Below, piece by piece: positions 1 through 32,253 of a DNA stretch of 64,000 nucleotides. Each line of letters opens with the position of its first letter. Position 1 is the stretch's first letter. Made by a program: the position numbers and the translations under genes. The notes beneath the pieces are model-generated. The model had not been told where the DNA came from. It searched no databases and saw only the letters and a program-made list of their open reading frames with translations. The stretch is from Rhodococcus triatomae BKS 15-14 (lineage in GTDB: Bacteria; Actinomycetota; Actinomycetes; Mycobacteriales; Mycobacteriaceae): the NCBI GenBank assembly GCA_000341795.1, contig AODO01000020.1, forward strand, positions 62,001 to 126,000, read 5' to 3'.

Positions 1-399
<399 letters not shown>

Positions 400-436
400 T
401 CACGCACGGGTCCCCGCGGGCACTCGGTCCGACCGC

Positions 437-736
437 TCACGCGGCGGAGTGGTCGTGCACCCACGGTGCCGGACTGATCTGCACCGCCACCGCTTCCCCC
501 TCCGTCGCGGACCGGATCACGCAGGTCGGTGGCGCCCAGACCGCACCGTTCTCCTGGAGGTAGATCGCCCGGTCCGGGTCGCCGCCGAGCAGGAAGGCGA
601 CGCCGCGGTCGTCCATTCCGAAACGGCCGGTCGCGTGCGCCGCGATACAGCGCGGAATCTCGGGCGGATAGTCGCCGGTGTCCAGGATCAGTTCCTCGTT
701 CGTGGTGTTGACCATTGTGACGCTCACGGTTGCCAT
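437..736 (-). CDS. hypothetical protein, 99 aa
   Basis: A small, probably cytoplasmic protein of no recognised family. The chosen ATG follows GAGGTGA about six bases upstream; an in-frame start 18 codons earlier lacks such a site. The sequence begins MATVSVTMVNTTNEELIL and looks like a beta-rich small domain. It has no signal peptide or membrane segment. It lies just downstream of the hypothetical gene ending at 848, in the same orientation, so the two may be cotranscribed. Function unknown. Confidence 0.6.
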   Translation of the reverse strand: MATVSVTMVNTTNEELILDTGDYPPEIPRCIAAHATGRFGMDDRGVAFLLGGDPDRAIYLQENGAVWAPPTCVIRSATEGEAVAVQISPAPWVHDHSAA

Positions 737-847
737 CGAATTCACCTCGAATCGTCCGGTTCGGGTCACACTCTGTTCAACAAATTTCACGCGTTCGACA
801 ATCCACTCGTGGCCGACGAACCGGCCGTGTCCCCGCCGTCACCTCCG

Positions 848-1348
848 TCATTCGGCGACGAGCGCGAACCCGGGACTACCGCCGTTCTCGGGCACGATGC
901 CGGCGACCACGACCCCGTGCCCCGACCGCACCTCGCCGTCCGCGCGGTACGCGCCGCTGTCGGTGCGGACCGGCTCGACCGTCGCGGAACCGCCGACCAG
1001 GGTCGACATGTTGAACCACACGACGCGGACCGGACCGGGCACGGTGTCCTCCGGAAGGTCGGTGTGCAACACCATGACGTCGGGGTCGGTCGTCGACCGC
1101 TCGACGTCTGCGTGCAGCACGTGAGTGCCGATCACCGGCTGGATCTGGAACGGGTGACTGAGCATCGAGGTCGGCGTGGACATCTGACCGATCCCGAGAT
1201 CGAGCAGATCGGTCGCCGCGCGCAGGTCGGTCGACGACTCGGCGACACCCTCCTTGCGCAACTCGGTCACCACGGAGGTGAGACCGGACCGGCAGAAGCG
1301 GGTGACGCGTGCCGGCGAGCGACGGGACGGGTTGTCGGCGGTCAGCAT
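848..1348 (-). CDS. hypothetical protein, 166 aa
   Basis: I do not recognise this protein. The ATG is preceded by GGAG with nine bases spacing, which supports translation. The N-terminal third is polar and basic; the remainder (from about residue 55) is a mixed, beta-rich stretch with no signal peptide, membrane helix or known catalytic motif. It is divergent from the 0358-like gene at 1520, and the 170 bases between them should carry two promoters. Antisense open frames exist here, but this frame has the more protein-like composition. Confidence 0.5.
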   Translation of the reverse strand: MLTADNPSRRSPARVTRFCRSGLTSVVTELRKEGVAESSTDLRAATDLLDLGIGQMSTPTSMLSHPFQIQPVIGTHVLHADVERSTTDPDVMVLHTDLPEDTVPGPVRVVWFNMSTLVGGSATVEPVRTDSGAYRADGEVRSGHGVVVAGIVPENGGSPGFALVAE

Positions 1349-1519
1349 CGAATGCTCCGGGGGTCGACGTGCCGAGGTGGTTCGGCCGTACCGTCCAGCG
1401 TAGGACCGTTAAGTCTCGATAACGCTGCCGTTCGGTAAGCATCGGAGCACCGGTTGCCGGTCACGCCGGCGGCGTTCGTATCGTCGAGCGCGACCACCGC
1501 GGACCGACCGGAGCTGATC

Positions 1520-2179
1520 TTGACCATTCACGTACTCGTGTGCGGCGACCACGCGCTGCCGGAATCCCTGTCGGCACTCCCCCGGACGAGCGCGCCCGAC
1601 CTTCCCGCGAAACCCGACTTCGACACCCTGCTGCCGACTCTCGACGAGGACACCGACGCCCGGCTCGTCGTCGTCGGCGGAGACGGCGCCCTCGCCGCGA
1701 CGGTGACCAGGCTGATGCGCGGAGAGCGGCTGCACGTCGAGGTCGCGTACGTCGCCGCCGAGCGGACGCCCGCGACGCGGCTGTACGGCCTTCCCGTCGC
1801 AGAGAGTGCCGCGCGGCTGGCGGTGTCCGGGTCCGCGTCGCAGCTCCCGCTGATCCGCGACGACTCCGGCACCGCCCTCGTCGGGGCGGCCACGATCACC
1901 GGCCCCGACGAGGGGCCGCTGGTCGGAGAGGCGTACGCCGATTCCGAACGCGTGTTCTCCGGGGAGATCACGGCGCTGCGGGTGACGCCCACGACCACCC
2001 TTCCGGGGGTACGCGCGAGTGCGGGTCGGCGTCTGCTGCGCACCCGCTGGCTGCCGGCGCGGGCGGTGCAGCTCGGCGCGGTCGGCGCGGTCGTGACCCG
2101 CGACGGCGTCACGACCCCGCGCGCGGTCAAGCGGTGCAGCTTCTACCGGGACGACCGCGGCTGGCTGCTGGTCCGCTGA
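1520..2179 (+). CDS. conserved protein resembling Rv0358, with a lipid-kinase-like glycine motif
   Basis: A protein of about 219 aa whose N-terminal part contains LVVVGGDGALAATV (about residues 49-62). This resembles the nucleotide-binding GGDG loop of diacylglycerol/NAD kinase-type domains, although no complete kinase domain is evident. The TTG at 1520 is preferred because GGAG sits six bases before it; an in-frame ATG at 1454 would add 22 residues of poor composition. By position between purA and an M50 protease it matches Rv0358 of M. tuberculosis (from memory, about 215 aa). The biochemical role is unknown. Confidence 0.7.
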   Translation: MTIHVLVCGDHALPESLSALPRTSAPDLPAKPDFDTLLPTLDEDTDARLVVVGGDGALAATVTRLMRGERLHVEVAYVAAERTPATRLYGLPVAESAARLAVSGSASQLPLIRDDSGTALVGAATITGPDEGPLVGEAYADSERVFSGEITALRVTPTTTLPGVRASAGRRLLRTRWLPARAVQLGAVGAVVTRDGVTTPRAVKRCSFYRDDRGWLLVR

Positions 2180-2215
2180 GCGACCCGCGGCGAACGTCGC
2201 GGCGATACTGGATTC

Positions 2216-2989
2216 ATGGCGTTCCCCGACACCCGCCGCTCCGCCGTCCGGCCGAGCCCGGTCTTCCTGGCCGTTCTGGCCGTCGCCGTCGCCGGCGGCG
2301 CAATGGCCTGGCGGGCCGCCCCGCAGTCGACGACCGCGAGTGTCGGGGTCTTCGTCCTCGTCGTCGCGGGCTGGGTGGTCACGGTCTGCCTCCACGAGTT
2401 CGCGCATGCCTACACCGCGTGGCGACACGGCGACCACGGTGTCGCGGCACGCGGCTACCTGACGTTGAACCCGCTCAGGTACAGCCACCCGCTGCTCTCG
2501 ATCGGACTGCCGGTGCTGTTCATCGCGTTGGGAGGCATCGGACTGCCCGGTGGGGCGGTGTACCTCCGGACGGATCAGCTGCCCCCGCGGGCCGTCCGGC
2601 AGATCACGCTCGCGGGGCCCGCTGTGAACGCGCTCGCCGCGGTCGTGCTGTTGACGGTGATCCGGTTGTTCGCGGACACCGAGTCCCACCCAGTGTTCTG
2701 GTGGGGGCTCGCCTTCCTCGCGTTCCTTCAGGTGACGGCGACCGTCCTGAACCTGATTCCGATCCCCGGGCTGGACGGCTATGCCGCGCTGGAGCCGTCG
2801 CTGTCGCCGAAGACCCGCCGCGCCCTCGACCAGTACAAGGGCGTCGGTCTGCTGGTGTTGGTCGCGTTGCTGTTCGTCCCGTCGGTCAACCGGGTGTTCT
2901 TCGACGCGATCTACGGGCTGTTCGAATTGTCCGGGGTGCCGGGCATCTGGGCCCGGTACGGCAACTCTCTGATGCGCTTCTGGCTGTGA
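2216..2989 (+). CDS. M50 (site-2) family intramembrane metalloprotease
   Basis: A polytopic membrane zinc protease of the site-2 type, 257 aa. The zinc-binding HEFAH motif is at residues 60-64, inside a hydrophobic segment, and the second metal-ligand motif NLIPIPGLDG is at 179-188. Five to six hydrophobic segments are visible. Such enzymes cleave substrates within the membrane. It starts 37 bases after the preceding gene and is probably cotranscribed with it. It corresponds by position and type to Rv0359. Substrate unknown; there is no PDZ domain, so it is not an RseP/Rip1-like protein. Confidence 0.85.
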   Translation: MAFPDTRRSAVRPSPVFLAVLAVAVAGGAMAWRAAPQSTTASVGVFVLVVAGWVVTVCLHEFAHAYTAWRHGDHGVAARGYLTLNPLRYSHPLLSIGLPVLFIALGGIGLPGGAVYLRTDQLPPRAVRQITLAGPAVNALAAVVLLTVIRLFADTESHPVFWWGLAFLAFLQVTATVLNLIPIPGLDGYAALEPSLSPKTRRALDQYKGVGLLVLVALLFVPSVNRVFFDAIYGLFELSGVPGIWARYGNSLMRFWL

Positions 2990-7990: not shown

Positions 7991-8904
7991 CCACGCCGGA
8001 CCTGCACGGGAAGGTCGCACTGGTCGCGGGCGCCACCCGCGGCGCAGGCAGGGCGATCGCCGTCGAACTGGCCCGCGCCGGCGCGTTCGTCTACGCGACC
8101 GGACGCAGCAGCCGGGCCGGGCGCTCCGAGATCGACCGGCCCGAGACCATCGAGGAGACAGGCGAACTCGTCGCCGCCGCCGGTGCCGGCGTGGCGCTGC
8201 GGGTCGACCATCTCGAACCCGATCAGGTGAAGGCACTCGTCGAACGGATCGACGCCGAACACGGCCGCCTCGACGTCCTCGTCAACGACATCTTCGGTGG
8301 CGACCGTTACGCCCAGTTCGGGACGACACTGTGGGAGCACGATCTGGACGGTGGCCTGCGGATGCTGCGGATGGGCATCGACACCCACGCGATCACCAGT
8401 CATGTCGCGCTCCCGCTGCTGATCCGCCGCCCCGGCGGGCTGGTCGTCGAGATGACCGACGGCACAGCCGAGTACAACGTCCGGTACCGGCACGAGACGG
8501 GCTTCTGGTACGACCTGGTGAAGGCGGCGGTGCAGCGAATGACCACCGCGCAGGCGTACGAACTGGCACCGCACGGCTGCGCGGCCGTCGCGCTCACACC
8601 GGGATGGCTGCGGTCCGAGAACATGCTCGACGCGTTCGGGGTCACCGAGGAGAGCTGGCGCGACGCGCTCGACAGGGTCCCGCACTTCGCGATCTCGGAG
8701 ACACCGACCTTCGTGGGTCGGGCGGTGGCCGCGCTCGCCGCGGACCCGGAGGCCGCCGAGTTCACCGGCCGGGTCGTCTCGAGCGGTCAACTCGCGCAGC
8801 GCTACGGGTTCACCGATGTGGACGGCTCCCGCCCGGACTGCTGGCGGTACCTGGTCGAGGTCCAGGACCCCGGGCTGCCCGCGAACACCGACGGCTACCG
8901 GTGA
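7987..8904 (+). CDS. short-chain dehydrogenase/reductase
   Basis: An SDR family oxidoreductase of 305 aa. The nucleotide-binding loop GATRGAGRAI is near residue 15, the structural NDIF replaces the common NNAG, and the catalytic Tyr-x-x-x-Lys is in WYDLVKAA. The length is greater than a classical 250-aa SDR, with insertions after the coenzyme fold. The start ATG overlaps the TGA of the upstream PNPOx-like gene, showing translational coupling. Substrate unknown. Together with the upstream gene it forms a small two-gene unit under probable WYL control. Confidence 0.85.
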   Translation: MTTPDLHGKVALVAGATRGAGRAIAVELARAGAFVYATGRSSRAGRSEIDRPETIEETGELVAAAGAGVALRVDHLEPDQVKALVERIDAEHGRLDVLVNDIFGGDRYAQFGTTLWEHDLDGGLRMLRMGIDTHAITSHVALPLLIRRPGGLVVEMTDGTAEYNVRYRHETGFWYDLVKAAVQRMTTAQAYELAPHGCAAVALTPGWLRSENMLDAFGVTEESWRDALDRVPHFAISETPTFVGRAVAALAADPEAAEFTGRVVSSGQLAQRYGFTDVDGSRPDCWRYLVEVQDPGLPANTDGYR

Positions 8905-8925
8905 CACCGGGCGGGCCGCCGCTCG

Positions 8926-9855
8926 TCACCAGGTGAGGTTCTCCTCGCAGCTCGACCCGTCGGCGGACGACTCCACCTGCACGGTGGCGTGTTCGAGGCC
9001 GTGGGTGTCGAGGACGGTCTTGGCGGCGCGCAGCACGTCCTGACTGTCGCCCTCGGTGGTCAGGTGCACGGTGGCGACGTCCATCCCGGTGGTCAGCGTC
9101 CACACGTGCAGGTCGTGGACGCCGGACACGCCCGGCAGGGCCTGCAGGTCGGCGCGCACCGCCTCGACGTCGACGTTCTCCGGGGACGCCTGGGTGAGGA
9201 TGCGGAGCGCCGCCGCGGCCAGCTTCACGGCACGCGGCACCACCCACAGCGAGATGAGCACACCGACGACGATGTCCGCGAAACTCCACTGGAACGCGAG
9301 GACGAGTGCACCGGCGATGAGGACACCGACCGAGCCGACGGCGTCGGCGAGCACTTCCAGGTATGCACCGCGCACGGCGAGGGAGTCCTTGGCGTCGGCG
9401 CGGAGCATCACCATCACGACGAGGTTGGCGGCGAGTCCGGCGGCGGCGGTCAACATCAGCGGGACGCCCGGGATCTCGGGGGCGTCGCCGATCCGCTCGA
9501 TCGCCTCGTACATCACCCAGACGGCGACGGCGAGCAGCAGGACCGCGTTCGCCATCGCGGTGAGCACCTCGGCGCGGTGCCATCCGAAGGTGCGGGCAGC
9601 CGCCTTGGAACCCTGCCGGGCCAGCAGCAGCGCGACGAGACCCATCGACATCCCCACGACGTCGGTGAGCATGTGGCCTGCGTCGGCCAGCAGGGCGAGC
9701 GATCCGATCGTGACGCCGACGACGACTTCGAGCACGAGGAATCCGACGAGGACGACGAGGGCGACGACCATGCGCCGGATGCGGGCGGTCGACGGACCGG
9801 CGCCGCCCGGCACCGGGCCGCCGTGTCCGTGTGCGTGTCCGTGCCCGGCTCCCAT
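8926..9855 (-). CDS. cation diffusion facilitator (CDF) metal exporter
   Basis: A CDF-family divalent metal/proton antiporter of 309 aa, probably exporting zinc or a similar ion. It has a His-rich N terminus (GHGHAHGHGG), six hydrophobic segments, and a C-terminal cytoplasmic domain with VHDLHVWTLTTG. The TM2 metal motif LADAGHMLTD keeps both ligands. TM5 reads YLEVLADAVGS, so a Glu occupies the position where many zinc CDFs have His. AGGGGA precedes the ATG. A palindrome 60-80 bases upstream is a candidate metal-sensor operator. It converges with the SDR gene. Confidence 0.9.
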   Translation of the reverse strand: MGAGHGHAHGHGGPVPGGAGPSTARIRRMVVALVVLVGFLVLEVVVGVTIGSLALLADAGHMLTDVVGMSMGLVALLLARQGSKAAARTFGWHRAEVLTAMANAVLLLAVAVWVMYEAIERIGDAPEIPGVPLMLTAAAGLAANLVVMVMLRADAKDSLAVRGAYLEVLADAVGSVGVLIAGALVLAFQWSFADIVVGVLISLWVVPRAVKLAAAALRILTQASPENVDVEAVRADLQALPGVSGVHDLHVWTLTTGMDVATVHLTTEGDSQDVLRAAKTVLDTHGLEHATVQVESSADGSSCEENLTW

Positions 9856-19535: not shown

Positions 19536-19554
19536 GGAGGCGGCTGTCGCCTCC
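19536..19554. terminator. 7-bp stem-loop downstream of the 40-aa peptide gene
   Basis: GGAGGCG and CGCCTCC arms around a GCTGT loop, starting 14 bases past the stop of the 40-aa gene on the minus strand. Likely terminator. Confidence 0.5.
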
Positions 19555-19567
19555 TGCGGTACCTGCG

Positions 19568-19690
19568 TCAGACGATCCCGAGGAATCCGCCGAATCCGGC
19601 GACACCGGAGAGCGCGCCTCCGAAGCCGGAGAGATACGTCCCGTATCCACCGAGTTCGTGGAGGAGATCGATGAACTGGTCGAAGGTCAT
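19568..19690 (-). CDS. 40-aa hydrophobic peptide, possible mycolate-membrane channel (PorA/PorH-like)
   Basis: A tiny glycine-rich, weakly acidic, amphipathic peptide starting MTFDQFIDLLHELGG and ending GGFLGIV. AAGGA precedes the ATG and a hairpin follows the stop, which supports a real gene. It aligns without gaps to the 47-aa peptide encoded at 19912-20055, with about half of the positions identical. There is no signal peptide. Its size, charge and lack of a leader recall the small alpha-helical porins PorA/PorH of Corynebacterium, but homology is inferred from these features only. Confidence 0.6.
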   Translation of the reverse strand: MTFDQFIDLLHELGGYGTYLSGFGGALSGVAGFGGFLGIV

Positions 19691-19857
19691 GGCGGTCCTT
19701 GGGTGACGCACGGATTCCGTGCGGACGGTGGACCGTCGGCGCGAGCGGCAACCGGCACCGACGGAACGATCCGAGACCGGCTCGTCGATCGCGAACGTTA
19801 CGGCAACACCGAAGGATCATGGGGTGTGAAAGTCACGATCTGCACACCCCGGAAACA

Positions 19858-19898
19858 CCTGTGGGCGGGTACCGCGCGATGCGGTACCCGCCCACAGG
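19858..19898. terminator. 18-bp perfect stem-loop after the 47-aa peptide gene
   Basis: Arms 19858-19875 and 19881-19898 pair perfectly around a GCGAT loop. It starts 14 bases past the stop of the 47-aa gene. It separates that transcript from the 40-aa gene, so the two paralogues are separate units. Confidence 0.8.
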
Positions 19899-19911
19899 CG
19901 AGGGTTAACGC

Positions 19912-20055
19912 TTACGCGCCAGCCGAGCCGCCGACGACGCTCTCGACGGAGCCGCCGAACTCGACGATGCCGGAGAGCGCATCGCCGACGCCGGTGAGGA
20001 GGTTGCCGAAGTCGCCGAGGGCGGTGAGCAGCTCGATAGCCTGATCGAAGTCCAT
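19912..20055 (-). CDS. 47-aa hydrophobic peptide, paralogue of the 40-aa peptide
   Basis: It starts MDFDQAIELLTALGDFGN and continues LLTGVGDALSGIVEFGG, with a small Ser/Gly/Ala tail (GGSAGA). The shared pattern with the 40-aa peptide is M-x-FDQ-x-I-x-LL, LG-x-x-G, and ALSG. AAAAGGA stands eight bases before the ATG. A promoter with a good -35/-10 pair lies about 90-120 bases upstream and a perfect hairpin follows the stop, giving a complete single-gene unit. Net acidic, amphipathic, no leader. Possible small outer-membrane channel or mycolated peptide; not proven. Confidence 0.65.
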   Translation of the reverse strand: MDFDQAIELLTALGDFGNLLTGVGDALSGIVEFGGSVESVVGGSAGA

Positions 20056-20144
20056 GGTGTTCCTTTTCGTCGAGCGCAGCTGGCGGGCCGCACTGGGCTT
20101 GTGATCGGAGCCGACATCACGATTCGATGACGACAACGAGGGCA

Positions 20145-20173
20145 ACGATATGGACGCGTAACCAAACCCTCAA
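20145..20173 (-). promoter_or_regulatory. promoter of the 47-aa peptide gene
   Basis: On the minus strand TTGAGG (20168-20173) and TATCGT (20145-20150) are separated by exactly 17 bases. The predicted transcript start near 20138 would leave an untranslated leader of about 80 bases. Confidence 0.55.
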
Positions 20174-20210
20174 GCGCTACGCCGGTGAGTTAGGTCACAC
20201 ACAGGCACCA

Positions 20211-20235: not shown

Positions 20236-20814
20236 TCAGAAAGTTTCGTTGGATTCCGGGCCGATTTCGAACCCGTGACCAGTTTCGTCGTTTTTGCATC
20301 TTGCGCCGGCATGCGTAGATGTGCATGTGAACCCGAACGAGGCAACGGACTGCCCCACCGGCAGCACCGGATCGTCCTCACCCGAGGTGTAGACGACGCC
20401 GCCCGCACACAGGAACTCCGCCGGGCCCGCGGTGGTCACGCGGATGCCCGTACCCCAGGCGATCATGCAGTTGTCGGGCCGCGGCGGGATCGGTGCCGTG
20501 GGACCCTGACAGCCCGCTTCCACGCGGGTCGCCAGTTCGATGATTCCGCACTGGAAACCGCCGGTCGGCGCGGTGAAGTAGACGGCCTCGTTGCGCTTGT
20601 AGGTGGTGGTCGCCGCGGCGGTCGTCGTCGGCGTCGCGGTGACCGTGGTCGTCGTGGCCGTGGGCGCCGAGGTAGTCGGAGCAGGCGCCGACGACACCGG
20701 CGCCGACACGACCCCGACCGTCGCCGCCTCCGGCGCGTCGGAGCCCCCGCAACCCGCCACCGCGAAGGCGGCCACCGCCGCACCCGTCACGATCACAACT
20801 CGACCGAAATCCAC
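20236..20814 (-). CDS. secreted lipoprotein with Thr/Pro-rich linker
   Basis: A 192-aa lipoprotein. The hydrophobic leader ends in the lipobox VAGC (Cys near residue 22), so the mature protein is lipid-anchored outside the membrane. A Ser/Thr/Pro/Ala-rich linker (about residues 30-75) is followed by a small domain with six cysteines (for example FQCGIIELATRVEAGCQG and FTCTSTHAGARCKND) that may form disulfides. The GTG at 20814 is chosen because GGAGGAG stands just upstream of it. It resembles secreted mycobacterial proteins of unknown role. Single gene. Confidence 0.75.
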   Translation of the reverse strand: MDFGRVVIVTGAAVAAFAVAGCGGSDAPEAATVGVVSAPVSSAPAPTTSAPTATTTTVTATPTTTAAATTTYKRNEAVYFTAPTGGFQCGIIELATRVEAGCQGPTAPIPPRPDNCMIAWGTGIRVTTAGPAEFLCAGGVVYTSGEDDPVLPVGQSVASFGFTCTSTHAGARCKNDETGHGFEIGPESNETF

Positions 20815-20901
20815 CCGACACTCCTCCATTCACGCGACCGGAACCGACCCTACGGGTCCTCTCGGGGGTGAGATAACCCACCACGTCCCTGGAGTGTGGC
20901 G

Positions 20902-29700: not shown

Positions 29701-32253
29701 TCAGCCGAGCACGAGGTGATCCCCGTCCTCGGTGACGCCGACGGGCACCGTGTCGCCGTCGTGCACCTCACCGGCGAGCAGCTTCTTCGCCAGCTGGTCG
29801 CCGATCGCCTGCTGGATGAGCCTGCGCAGCGGACGCGCGCCGTACAGCGGGTCGTATCCCCGAACCGCCAGCCACATCCGGGCCGCGGGCGACACGTCGA
29901 GCGTGAGCCTGCGCGCCTGCAGCCGGGTGGCGAGCTGCGCGAGCTGGATGTCGACGATCGACTCCAACTGCTCCTCCGACAGCGGATCGAAGACGACCAC
30001 GTCGTCCAGCCGGTTCACGAACTCCGGCTTGAACGCGGACCGCACCGCCGCCATCACCTGTTCCTTGTCGCCACCCGCACCGAGGTTCGAGGTGAGGATC
30101 AGGATGGTGTTGCGGAAGTCGACGGTCCGCCCCTGCCCGTCCGTCAGCCTGCCGTCGTCGAGCACCTGCAGCAGGATGTCGAACACGTCCGGATGCGCCT
30201 TCTCGACCTCGTCGAACAGCACGACGGAGTACGGGCGCCTGCGGACCGCCTCGGTCAGCTGACCACCCGACTCGTAACCGACGTAGCCGGGGGGCGCACC
30301 GACGAGCCGTGCGACCGCGTGCTTCTCGCTGTACTCCGACATGTCGATCCGCACCATCGCGCGTTCGTCGTCGAACAGGAAGTCCGCGAGGGCCTTCGCG
30401 AGCTCCGTCTTGCCGACACCGGTCGGGCCGAGGAACAGGAACGAGCCGGTCGGCCGGTTCGGGTCGGCCACCCCGGCACGGGCACGGCGCACCGCGTCGG
30501 AGACGGCCTGCACGGCATCGGCCTGGCCGACCACGCGCTTACCGAGCTCGGTCTCCATCCGGAGCAGCTTGGCGGTCTCGCCCTCCATCATCCGGCCGGC
30601 CGGGATACCGGTCCACGCCGCGACGACGTCGGCGACGTCGTCGGGACCGACCTCCTCCTTCAGCATGACGTCACCGTCGGAGGCACCACCGGACGCCTCG
30701 ACCGCGGCGGCGAGCTTCTTCTCCAGCTCGGGAATGCGGCCGTAACGCAGTTCGGCAGCCTTGCCGAGGTCGCCGTCGCGTTCGGCCCGCTCGGACTCGC
30801 CGCGCAGCTCCTCGAGCTGTTCCTTGATCCCGCGGACCGAGTCGATCGCCTGCTTCTCGTTCTGCCAGCGTGCATTGAGCTGACTGAGCTTCTCGCGGTC
30901 GTCGGCCAGTTCCTCACGGAGTTTGGCGAGCCGCTCCTGGGAGGCGGCGTCCGTCTCCTTGGTCAGTGCCATCTCCTCGATCTCGAGCTGACGCACCTTC
31001 CGTTCGACCTCGTCGATCTCGACGGGCCGGGAGTCGATCTCCATCCGCAGCCTGGACGCGGCCTCGTCGACGAGGTCGATCGCCTTGTCCGGCAGGAAGC
31101 GCGAGGTGATGTACCGGTCGGACAGGGCCGCGGCCGCGACCAGCGCCGAGTCGGTGATGCGCACACCGTGGTGCACCTCGTACCGCTCCTTGAGACCGCG
31201 CAGGATGCCGACGGTGTCCTCGACGGACGGCTCGCCGACGAGCACCTGCTGGAAGCGACGTTCGAGGGCCGCGTCCTTCTCGATGTACTTGCGGTACTCC
31301 TCGAGGGTGGTCGCACCGACCAGCCGCAGCTCGCCGCGCGCGAGCATCGGCTTGATCATGTTGCCGGCATCCATCGCGGACTCGCCGGTCGCGCCGGCAC
31401 CGACGATGGTGTGCAGCTCGTCGATGAAGGTGATGACCTGACCTGCGGAGTTCTTGATGTCGTCGAGGACGGCCTTGAGGCGCTCCTCGAACTCGCCGCG
31501 GTACTTCGCGCCGGCGACCATCGACCCGAGGTCGAGGGAGATGACGGTCTTGCCGCGCAGCGACTCGGGGACGTCGCCCGCGACGATGCGCTGCGCGAGG
31601 CCCTCGACGATGGCGGTCTTGCCGACGCCGGGTTCACCGATGAGCACCGGGTTGTTCTTGGTGCGGCGGCTGAGCACCTGGACGACGCGCCGGATCTCGG
31701 TGTCGCGGCCGATGACGGGGTCGAGCTTGCCCTCACGGGCGCGGGCCGTGAGGTCGGTGGAGTACTTCTCCAGCGCCTGGTAGCTGCCCTCCGGGTCGGG
31801 GCTGGTGACGCGGGCGCTGCCGCGCACGGTCGTGAACGCGTCGCGCAGTGCCTGCGGGGTCGCGCCGTGCCCGTTCAGCAACTTCGCCACGTCACCGTCG
31901 CCGGACGCGAGACCGAACAGCACGTGCTCGGTCGAGACGTACTCGTCGTCCATCTCGGTCGCGAGGTGCTGGGCGGCGGTGATCGCGGCGATGGCCTCGC
32001 GACCGAGCTGCGGCTGGGTGGTGGCACCGGTCGCGCGGGGCAACCGATCCACGAGCGTCTGCGCCTCGCGGTGCACGACGGCGGGATCGACCCCGACGGC
32101 CTTGAGCAGCGGCGACGCGATGCCGTCGGTCTGGTCGAGCAGTGCGGCCAGCAGGTGCGCCGGACGGATGTCCGGGTTGCCGGCAGCGGATGCGGACTGC
32201 AGGGCGGCCGTCAAGGCTGCCTGAGTCTTGGTGGTTGGAGAGAACGAGTCCAC
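29701..32253 (-). CDS. clpB: ATP-dependent disaggregase ClpB
   Basis: An 850-aa Hsp100 chaperone that, with DnaK, pulls apart aggregated proteins. It has an N-terminal Clp_N domain (1-145), first AAA+ domain with Walker A GEPGVGKT (206-213) and Walker [10 protein letters not shown], a long coiled-coil middle domain (about 390-520), and second AAA+ domain with [12 protein letters not shown] near residue 605 and Walker [12 protein letters not shown]. Length and layout are full. A HAIR operator lies 117 bases upstream, so HspR should repress it along with the dnaK operon. A perfect hairpin follows. Matches Rv0384c. Confidence 0.97.

Follow-up and report, generated by a model that had tools for sequence, protein, structure and literature searches.

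The locus and its features

The window, which is the whole stretch of 64,000 nucleotides analyzed here, belongs to Rhodococcus triatomae BKS 15-14. Two short frames of 40 and 47 codons lie on its minus strand, as had been predicted from the letters alone. The predicted ribosome-binding sites are also present: in each gene an AAGGA motif ends 5 nt before the ATG. The features of the locus are as follows.

19912..20055, minus strand: gene of a 47-aa leaderless, acidic, amphipathic peptide (MDFDQAIELL...), the main family member; frame, AAGGA and a syntenic ortholog in Rhodococcus sp. RD6.2
19568..19690, minus strand: gene of a 40-aa paralog (MTFDQFIDLL...), which is probably a second peptide gene or has arisen by recent duplication; AAGGA
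19856..19900, minus strand: 20-bp hairpin directly 3′ of the 47-aa gene; −46 kcal/mol, z −8.5; nearly identical in RD6.2
19536..19554, minus strand: 7-bp hairpin behind the 40-aa gene; folding of the region is at the level of shuffles (z −0.24)
20056..20121, minus strand: conserved leader before the start codon of the 47-aa gene; 2 differences in 66 nt from RD6.2, fold z 0.29, no Rfam match
20145..20173, minus strand: promoter-like TTGAGG-N17-TATCGT upstream of the 47-aa gene, read by eye; similar pair in RD6.2
20184..20199, minus strand: CRP/GlxR-like site TGTGACCTAACTCACC; TGTG-N7-TCAC recurs upstream of related genes

The 47-aa frame is a real gene. In RD6.2, a member of the same genus (g1), the same genes flank an ortholog of it. 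With the divergent tail excluded, the two genes differ by 7 synonymous and 3 nonsynonymous changes in 37 aligned codons (dN 0.037, dS 0.30). The orthologs of two Prescottella genomes (G186 and G216, genus g10) differ by 4 synonymous and 0 nonsynonymous changes over 45 codons. The gene is under purifying selection and syntenic. A conserved frame at a conserved position exists for the 47-aa gene in RD6.2, and Prescottella has orthologs; the RD6.2 locus lacks the shorter neighbor. All ten glycine codons of the 47-aa gene are GGC, yet its codon adaptation as a whole is average (53rd percentile). A plasmid-borne family was considered and rejected: the 47-aa peptide gave 0 matches at E ≤ 1 in a plasmid collection. 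The PDB sequence search with this peptide returned a de novo design as its sole match.

The 40-aa frame is likely a gene too, with weaker support than the 47-aa frame. The two peptides show 53% identity in a gap-free alignment, which agrees with the original prediction of paralogs with about half of their residues in common.

Properties of the peptides

The peptides had been described as leaderless, acidic, glycine-rich and amphipathic, and each of these traits is borne out. Net charge is −3 for the 40-aa and −7 for the 47-aa peptide, with glycine contents of 28% and 21%, and no leader is apparent in either when judged by eye. The best 18-residue hydrophobic moment is significant for each peptide (p = 0.001, 2000 shuffles). 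Three orthologs or relatives reach p = 0.03–0.05, and in one relative from genus g24 (G028) the moment falls short of significance (p = 0.25). AlphaFold2 models (five sequences), weak evidence for such short peptides, predict one helix in the 47-mer (residues 3–44, pLDDT 81) and two in the 40-mer (3–15 and 17–39, pLDDT 69). Serine residues are present in both window peptides, and the RD6.2 and Prescottella peptides carry a serine at or near the C-terminal end.

Transcription signals

A hairpin of its own had been claimed for each gene. This applies to the 47-aa gene, whose strong hairpin is kept in RD6.2 and is likely a transcription terminator or the 3′ end of the unit, whereas the fold behind the 40-aa gene is unremarkable. 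The hairpin of the 47-aa gene has no T-run and is absent from the list of the terminator scan. No Rfam element was found around the peptide genes at gathering scores. As to the clear promoter that had been reported, a scan with the sigma-70 consensus found none, and what stands is the pair read by eye upstream of the 47-aa gene.

The TGTG-N7-TCAC motif before the 47-aa gene has a form which we take to resemble CRP/GlxR sites. It occurs at −132 to −145 from the start codon in all five genes of the window, RD6.2 and Prescottella type, which represent two lineages, and in none of three genes of the type found in G002 and G029. Scanning the window alone gave no significant result for such a site (3 matches against 0.94 expected; 8 of 100 shuffles). 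The recurrence upstream of five related genes is suggestive and may be a lead toward CRP-type control. Upstream of the peptide genes of both G002 and G029 there is an AT-rich, Fur/Zur-like stretch (TTGTTATTGRTTRTCATT...), which suggests that this subtype is under metal-dependent control.

Genomic neighborhood

A position beside mycolate-transport and lipid genes had been taken to fit a role in the mycomembrane; this did not hold up. In 18 scanned frames, some of them overlapping and covering part of the window, the neighbors are ordinary and include a SpoU methylase, a GH76 protein, a Thr-rich secreted-looking protein, an SDR, a YhhN protein, galK and galT. The large frame at 29701–32253 (850 aa) is ClpB. 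The scanned neighbors include no groEL, ppk2 or MytC gene and no recognizable antitoxin or immunity gene, and no PorA-like partner was recognized in the window. The Thr-rich protein (20236–20829, minus strand), secreted or lipoprotein-like, has no NCBIfam match, and a frame nested in it has no Pfam match; in RD6.2, too, the 47-aa gene has a similar frame upstream of it.

Distribution of the family

Relatives of the window peptides are found in Prescottella (G101, G186, G216), in the congener G002 and in genomes of other genera (G029, twice, and G006, G036, G028, G077 and G087). Two profile searches matched 21 and 20 of 401 genomes of the taxonomic family at E ≤ 0.01, with several of the matches in long frames; matches inside long frames were discounted as chance by frame length (for example G093:C7, the g9 genomes, G391, G420 and G571). 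The spread is patchy: three of the six g1 genomes have no match at E ≤ 0.1. Among 249 genomes drawn from across the order, two gave a match to the profile, namely the window's own genome and one with a frame of 373 aa.

A wider profile, with PorACj-type and g4 seeds added, matched 44 of 321 genomes. Short, leaderless-looking frames were thereby assigned to genera g1, g2, g3, g4, g6, g10, g14, g21, g24, g25 and g28. This list combines wider-profile matches with frames that were read; g6 and g28 rest on one locus reading, the frames of G007, G250 and G151 come from the wider-profile search outside the reading of loci, and g3 is taken as Corynebacterium from its porH genes.

Three of these loci have features of their own. 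In G118 (g14, C163) a leaderless-looking protein of 91 aa consists of LSGSGD/LTGSGD-like repeats, with a weak Pfam match to LbR_Ice_bind (E 0.0017); it may be an enlarged version of the small peptides. G114 (g6; 1492–1845, minus strand) encodes leaderless-looking peptides of 33 and 34 aa in tandem, both ending in FFS. In G087 (8830–9684) a CAAX-protease-like (Rce1) gene adjoins the 90-aa family relative.

Comparison with the porins of Corynebacterium

Several kinds of small or pore-forming mycomembrane protein can be set beside the window peptides. PorACj of C. jeikeium is described as a leaderless, helical protein of 40 aa which forms a homooligomeric anion-selective channel (PMC3792995). With the absence of a leader judged by eye and helices predicted, the window peptides share its character as a short, leaderless, helical and amphipathic peptide. 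PorACj proteins (NF038022) resemble them in length (38–47 aa), in the lack of an apparent leader, in the helical amphipathic form and in a glycine-rich core. The differences are that the window peptides are more acidic, belong to a genus other than Corynebacterium, match no NCBIfam model at E ≤ 1 (porin models included) and lie outside the groEL2-ppk2 locus.

PorH (NF033938), the partner of PorA in a mycomembrane channel, shares an N-terminal M-D/E-hydrophobic start, an L-G/D-x-F pattern and acidity with the window peptides; however, it is usually longer, has a Ser-rich tail and is paired with PorA in one operon. PorA (NF033925) is of the same size class, leaderless and arranged in tandem, but the window peptides lack its C-terminal K/D-L-I/L-G-L motif. 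MspA porins (PF09203) have only their presumed role in common with them, as hydrophilic pores of the mycomembrane. The MspA protein is a β-barrel octamer with a signal peptide (PMC9233653), its profile spans 179 positions, and it is unrelated to the window peptides; in Pfam these gave one spurious weak match and, at 40 and 47 aa against about 180 residues, no MspA domain.

Profiles were compared with hhalign. The PorACj set held six PorACj-type sequences collected with NF038022 independently of the window (the PorH-type protein of a seventh genome was left out). The PorH and PorA sets, 16 of the listed sequences each, came from loci found with NF033938. The window family, here called W, comprised 10 sequences, or 15 in a larger version.

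W scored 35.9 against PorACj, the best of the profiles tested, where 200 column shuffles gave 9.4 ± 2.2 (maximum 17.6) and the reversed profile 16.7. With 15 sequences the score was 38.7, equaled by none of 150 column shuffles. Against PorH it was 24.6 (z 7.0, 0 of 149 shuffles as good; reversed 18.2), and 25.0 with 15 sequences (0 of 149). Against PorA it was 13.3 (z 2.2, 5 of 150 shuffles as good; reversed higher, 15.7), and 14.9 with 15 sequences (1 of 150); similarity to PorA proper is marginal. The peptides of genus g4 gave 21.6 (z 3.6; 2 of 150 shuffles as good). Accepted relatives served as yardsticks: PorACj and PorH score 25.9 (z 7.1), PorACj and PorA 19.1 (z 4.5), PorH and PorA 16.2 (z 5.9; reversed 20.8). 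By this measure the distance between W and PorACj is no greater than the distances among the accepted relatives.

A further set T, made of five sequences from g24 and g21, scored 34.5 against W (z 8.7) and 36.2 against PorACj (z 15.1), with z 7.2 against PorH and z 7.4 against PorA. The comparison of T with W is not fully independent because T was found via the window profile; that of T with PorACj is independent. A simple glycine-rich composition could inflate such scores, and the reversed control of T against PorACj reaches 23.7. Column order does count: when alignments are shuffled or reversed, the greater part of the score disappears.

Direct searches point the same way. The 90-aa relative in G087, itself found by the window profile, matches NF038022 with E 5e-5 and 23.2 bits, just under the cut-off of 28 bits. 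A window-family profile (A4) run over 101 g3 genomes gave 70 mostly weak rows at E ≤ 10, for some of which the locus was read. The best and four others fall on porin-type genes, where a uniform spread, in an estimate which ignores composition, would place about 0.03. The best row (G321, E 0.003) falls on a PorACj-type gene that NF038022 picked up as well. The four others are a PorH gene in G440 (E 0.4, at the same place as an NF033938 match), a PorA-like frame in G489 which adjoins a PorH-like one (E 0.9), and two PorH-like frames in G468 (E 0.19 and 0.20), the latter judged by eye and absent among the NF033938 matches listed. The second-best row lies inside a 523-aa frame in G494. At the G468 locus (374–2329, minus strand) small frames of PorH-like and PorA-like type form three pairs in tandem, an apparent expansion of the porin locus.

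Relatives beside MytC-like genes

All three g24 genomes examined (G077, G028 and G093) hold the family peptide, a second leaderless-looking peptide of 48 aa and a hydrolase frame on one strand; the hydrolases of G077 and G028 cluster by BLAST, and the G093 frame was matched by eye. The G077 hydrolase is an Esterase in Pfam and has the Cmt1 entries 8qhf and 4h18 as its best PDB matches (E 5e-79). The enzyme of these entries is called MytC and mycoloylates PorA in vitro, as described in PMC11927696. The second small peptide of g24 was considered as PorA-like, and the comparison was not significant (z 2.1; 5 of 150 shuffles).

In g21 (G106 and G090) the frame that comes after the peptide shares the N-terminal pattern of the g24 hydrolase, as judged by eye. 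The g4 genome G113 has four small peptides, flanked by a GroEL gene on one side and another Cmt1-like gene (E 4e-50) on the other. The classical porin position is beside GroEL2, between groEL2 and ppk2, according to PMC3792995 and PMC5944148; it is not the position of the window peptide genes, which have the SpoU methylase, the Thr-rich protein, the SDR and others beside them.

Relation to MspA porins

Small helical pores are assigned to Corynebacterium and MspA-type pores to the other mycolate genera treated in PMC9233653, which also places MspA-type channels in two Rhodococcus species. Among the g1 genomes (G000–G005) MspA-family matches range from 1 to 19, counts which may include fragments. 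The window genome and RD6.2 have one each, three congeners without a detected peptide have 19, 19 and 11, and G002, with its diverged peptide, has 10.

Across genera, all 11 peptide-bearing ones have 0–2 MspA matches, as do 6 of the 20 others (one-sided Mann–Whitney p = 2.0e-4; 2.7e-4 without g1). This test uses one genome per genus (G000 for g1), treats genera as independent of phylogeny and rests on uneven peptide detection; some genera (for example g10, G014) are counted on a genome other than the one with the detected peptide. MspA is fully absent from 5 of the 11 peptide-bearing genera and 2 of the 20 others (p = 0.067). A Fisher p of 0.012 obtained for MspA-less genera predates the g6 and g28 peptides and is superseded by the value of 0.067 that includes them.

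Interpretation

We propose that the 47-aa peptide is a divergent member, from outside Corynebacterium, of the PorACj/PorH type, whose leaderless helical peptides form channels in the mycomembrane, and that the 40-aa paralog probably belongs to this type as well. We put the probability of this reading at roughly 0.65. The idea of a PorA/PorH equivalent was part of the original prediction. Profile similarity to PorACj and PorH, the recovery of g3 porin-type genes, adjacency to MytC-like genes in two genera and the inverse relation to MspA speak for it; the likeness to PorA itself is marginal.

For the window peptides we infer export, mycomembrane location, mycoloylation, channel formation and regulation along the following lines. 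The peptides would be exported in the same way as the Corynebacterium micro-porins and become part of the mycomembrane, perhaps once an enzyme of MytC/Cmt1 type has O-mycoloylated a serine. There they would oligomerize, with the polar helix faces lining a water-filled channel for small solutes. Such oligomeric helical channels are proposed by likeness to PorACj and to the PorA/PorH pore of Corynebacterium (PMC12632848). The 47-aa gene may form its own transcription unit, with the strong hairpin at its end and perhaps control of cAMP-CRP type. The 40-aa copy could be either a partner subunit or the product of a recent duplication.

Other readings have to be weighed. The peptides may be small, possibly mycoloylated components without a pore, structural like ProtX of C. 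glutamicum and tying the mycomembrane to the cell wall; we consider this unlikely. ProtX is described as a leaderless protein of 38 aa which is mycoloylated on its penultimate serine (PMC5310785) and linked to the wall (PMC12632848). Going by these descriptions, size and leaderless nature fit it as well as they fit a channel, and the serines at or near the end of the RD6.2 and Prescottella peptides agree with it. However, ProtX is reported to be dissimilar to PorA and PorH (PMC5310785), whereas the window family is similar to PorACj and PorH. A membrane-active peptide of another kind (for example type I toxin-like, a leaderless bacteriocin or a surfactant that is secreted) would likewise be short, amphipathic and predicted to be helical, and its porin resemblance would then stem from simple glycine-rich composition alone. 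This is highly improbable: the peptides are acidic, not basic, most of the profile score vanishes on shuffling or reversal, relatives are linked to a MytC-like gene, and the scanned neighbors offer no recognizable antitoxin or immunity gene.

A third alternative concerns the shorter frame and is compatible with the channel reading. The 40-aa frame could be a decaying or non-functional duplicate, with the 47-aa gene alone of importance; we regard this as possible though somewhat doubtful. The RD6.2 locus has no ortholog of the 40-aa gene, its codon adaptation reaches only the 20th percentile of 188 windows taken from 12 genes, the hairpin behind it is unremarkable, and its dN/dS relative to the 47-aa gene is about 0.5. 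Yet frame, start and AAGGA are all intact, the amphipathicity is strong (p = 0.001), and tandem porin-type genes are frequent in Corynebacterium.

Outlook

The channel reading may be carried further, in a tentative form to which we give slightly less than even odds. Leaderless helical micro-porins would be general among mycolate bacteria as a second pore system, one which replaces the MspA barrel; lineages with MspA lost or reduced, such as the window clade with one match against 10–19 in four congeners, would rely on them, and a MytC-type enzyme, in some genera encoded in the same cluster, would modify them. A small channel-forming protein from R. erythropolis was reportedly described by Lichtinger et al. 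in 2000 and could be a precedent. In the open-license literature we found nothing on PorACj/PorH-like peptides outside Corynebacterium, a search beyond which most subscription papers lie.

How solutes pass the mycomembrane and how leaderless peptides arrive there are the questions addressed by these genes. The PorACj-like genes, which occur in as many as ten further genera and in some cases beside a MytC-like gene, are candidates for testing both in harmless species. They belong to a class that length filters can miss, and micro-pore peptides could extend to a wider range of bacteria than Corynebacterium.
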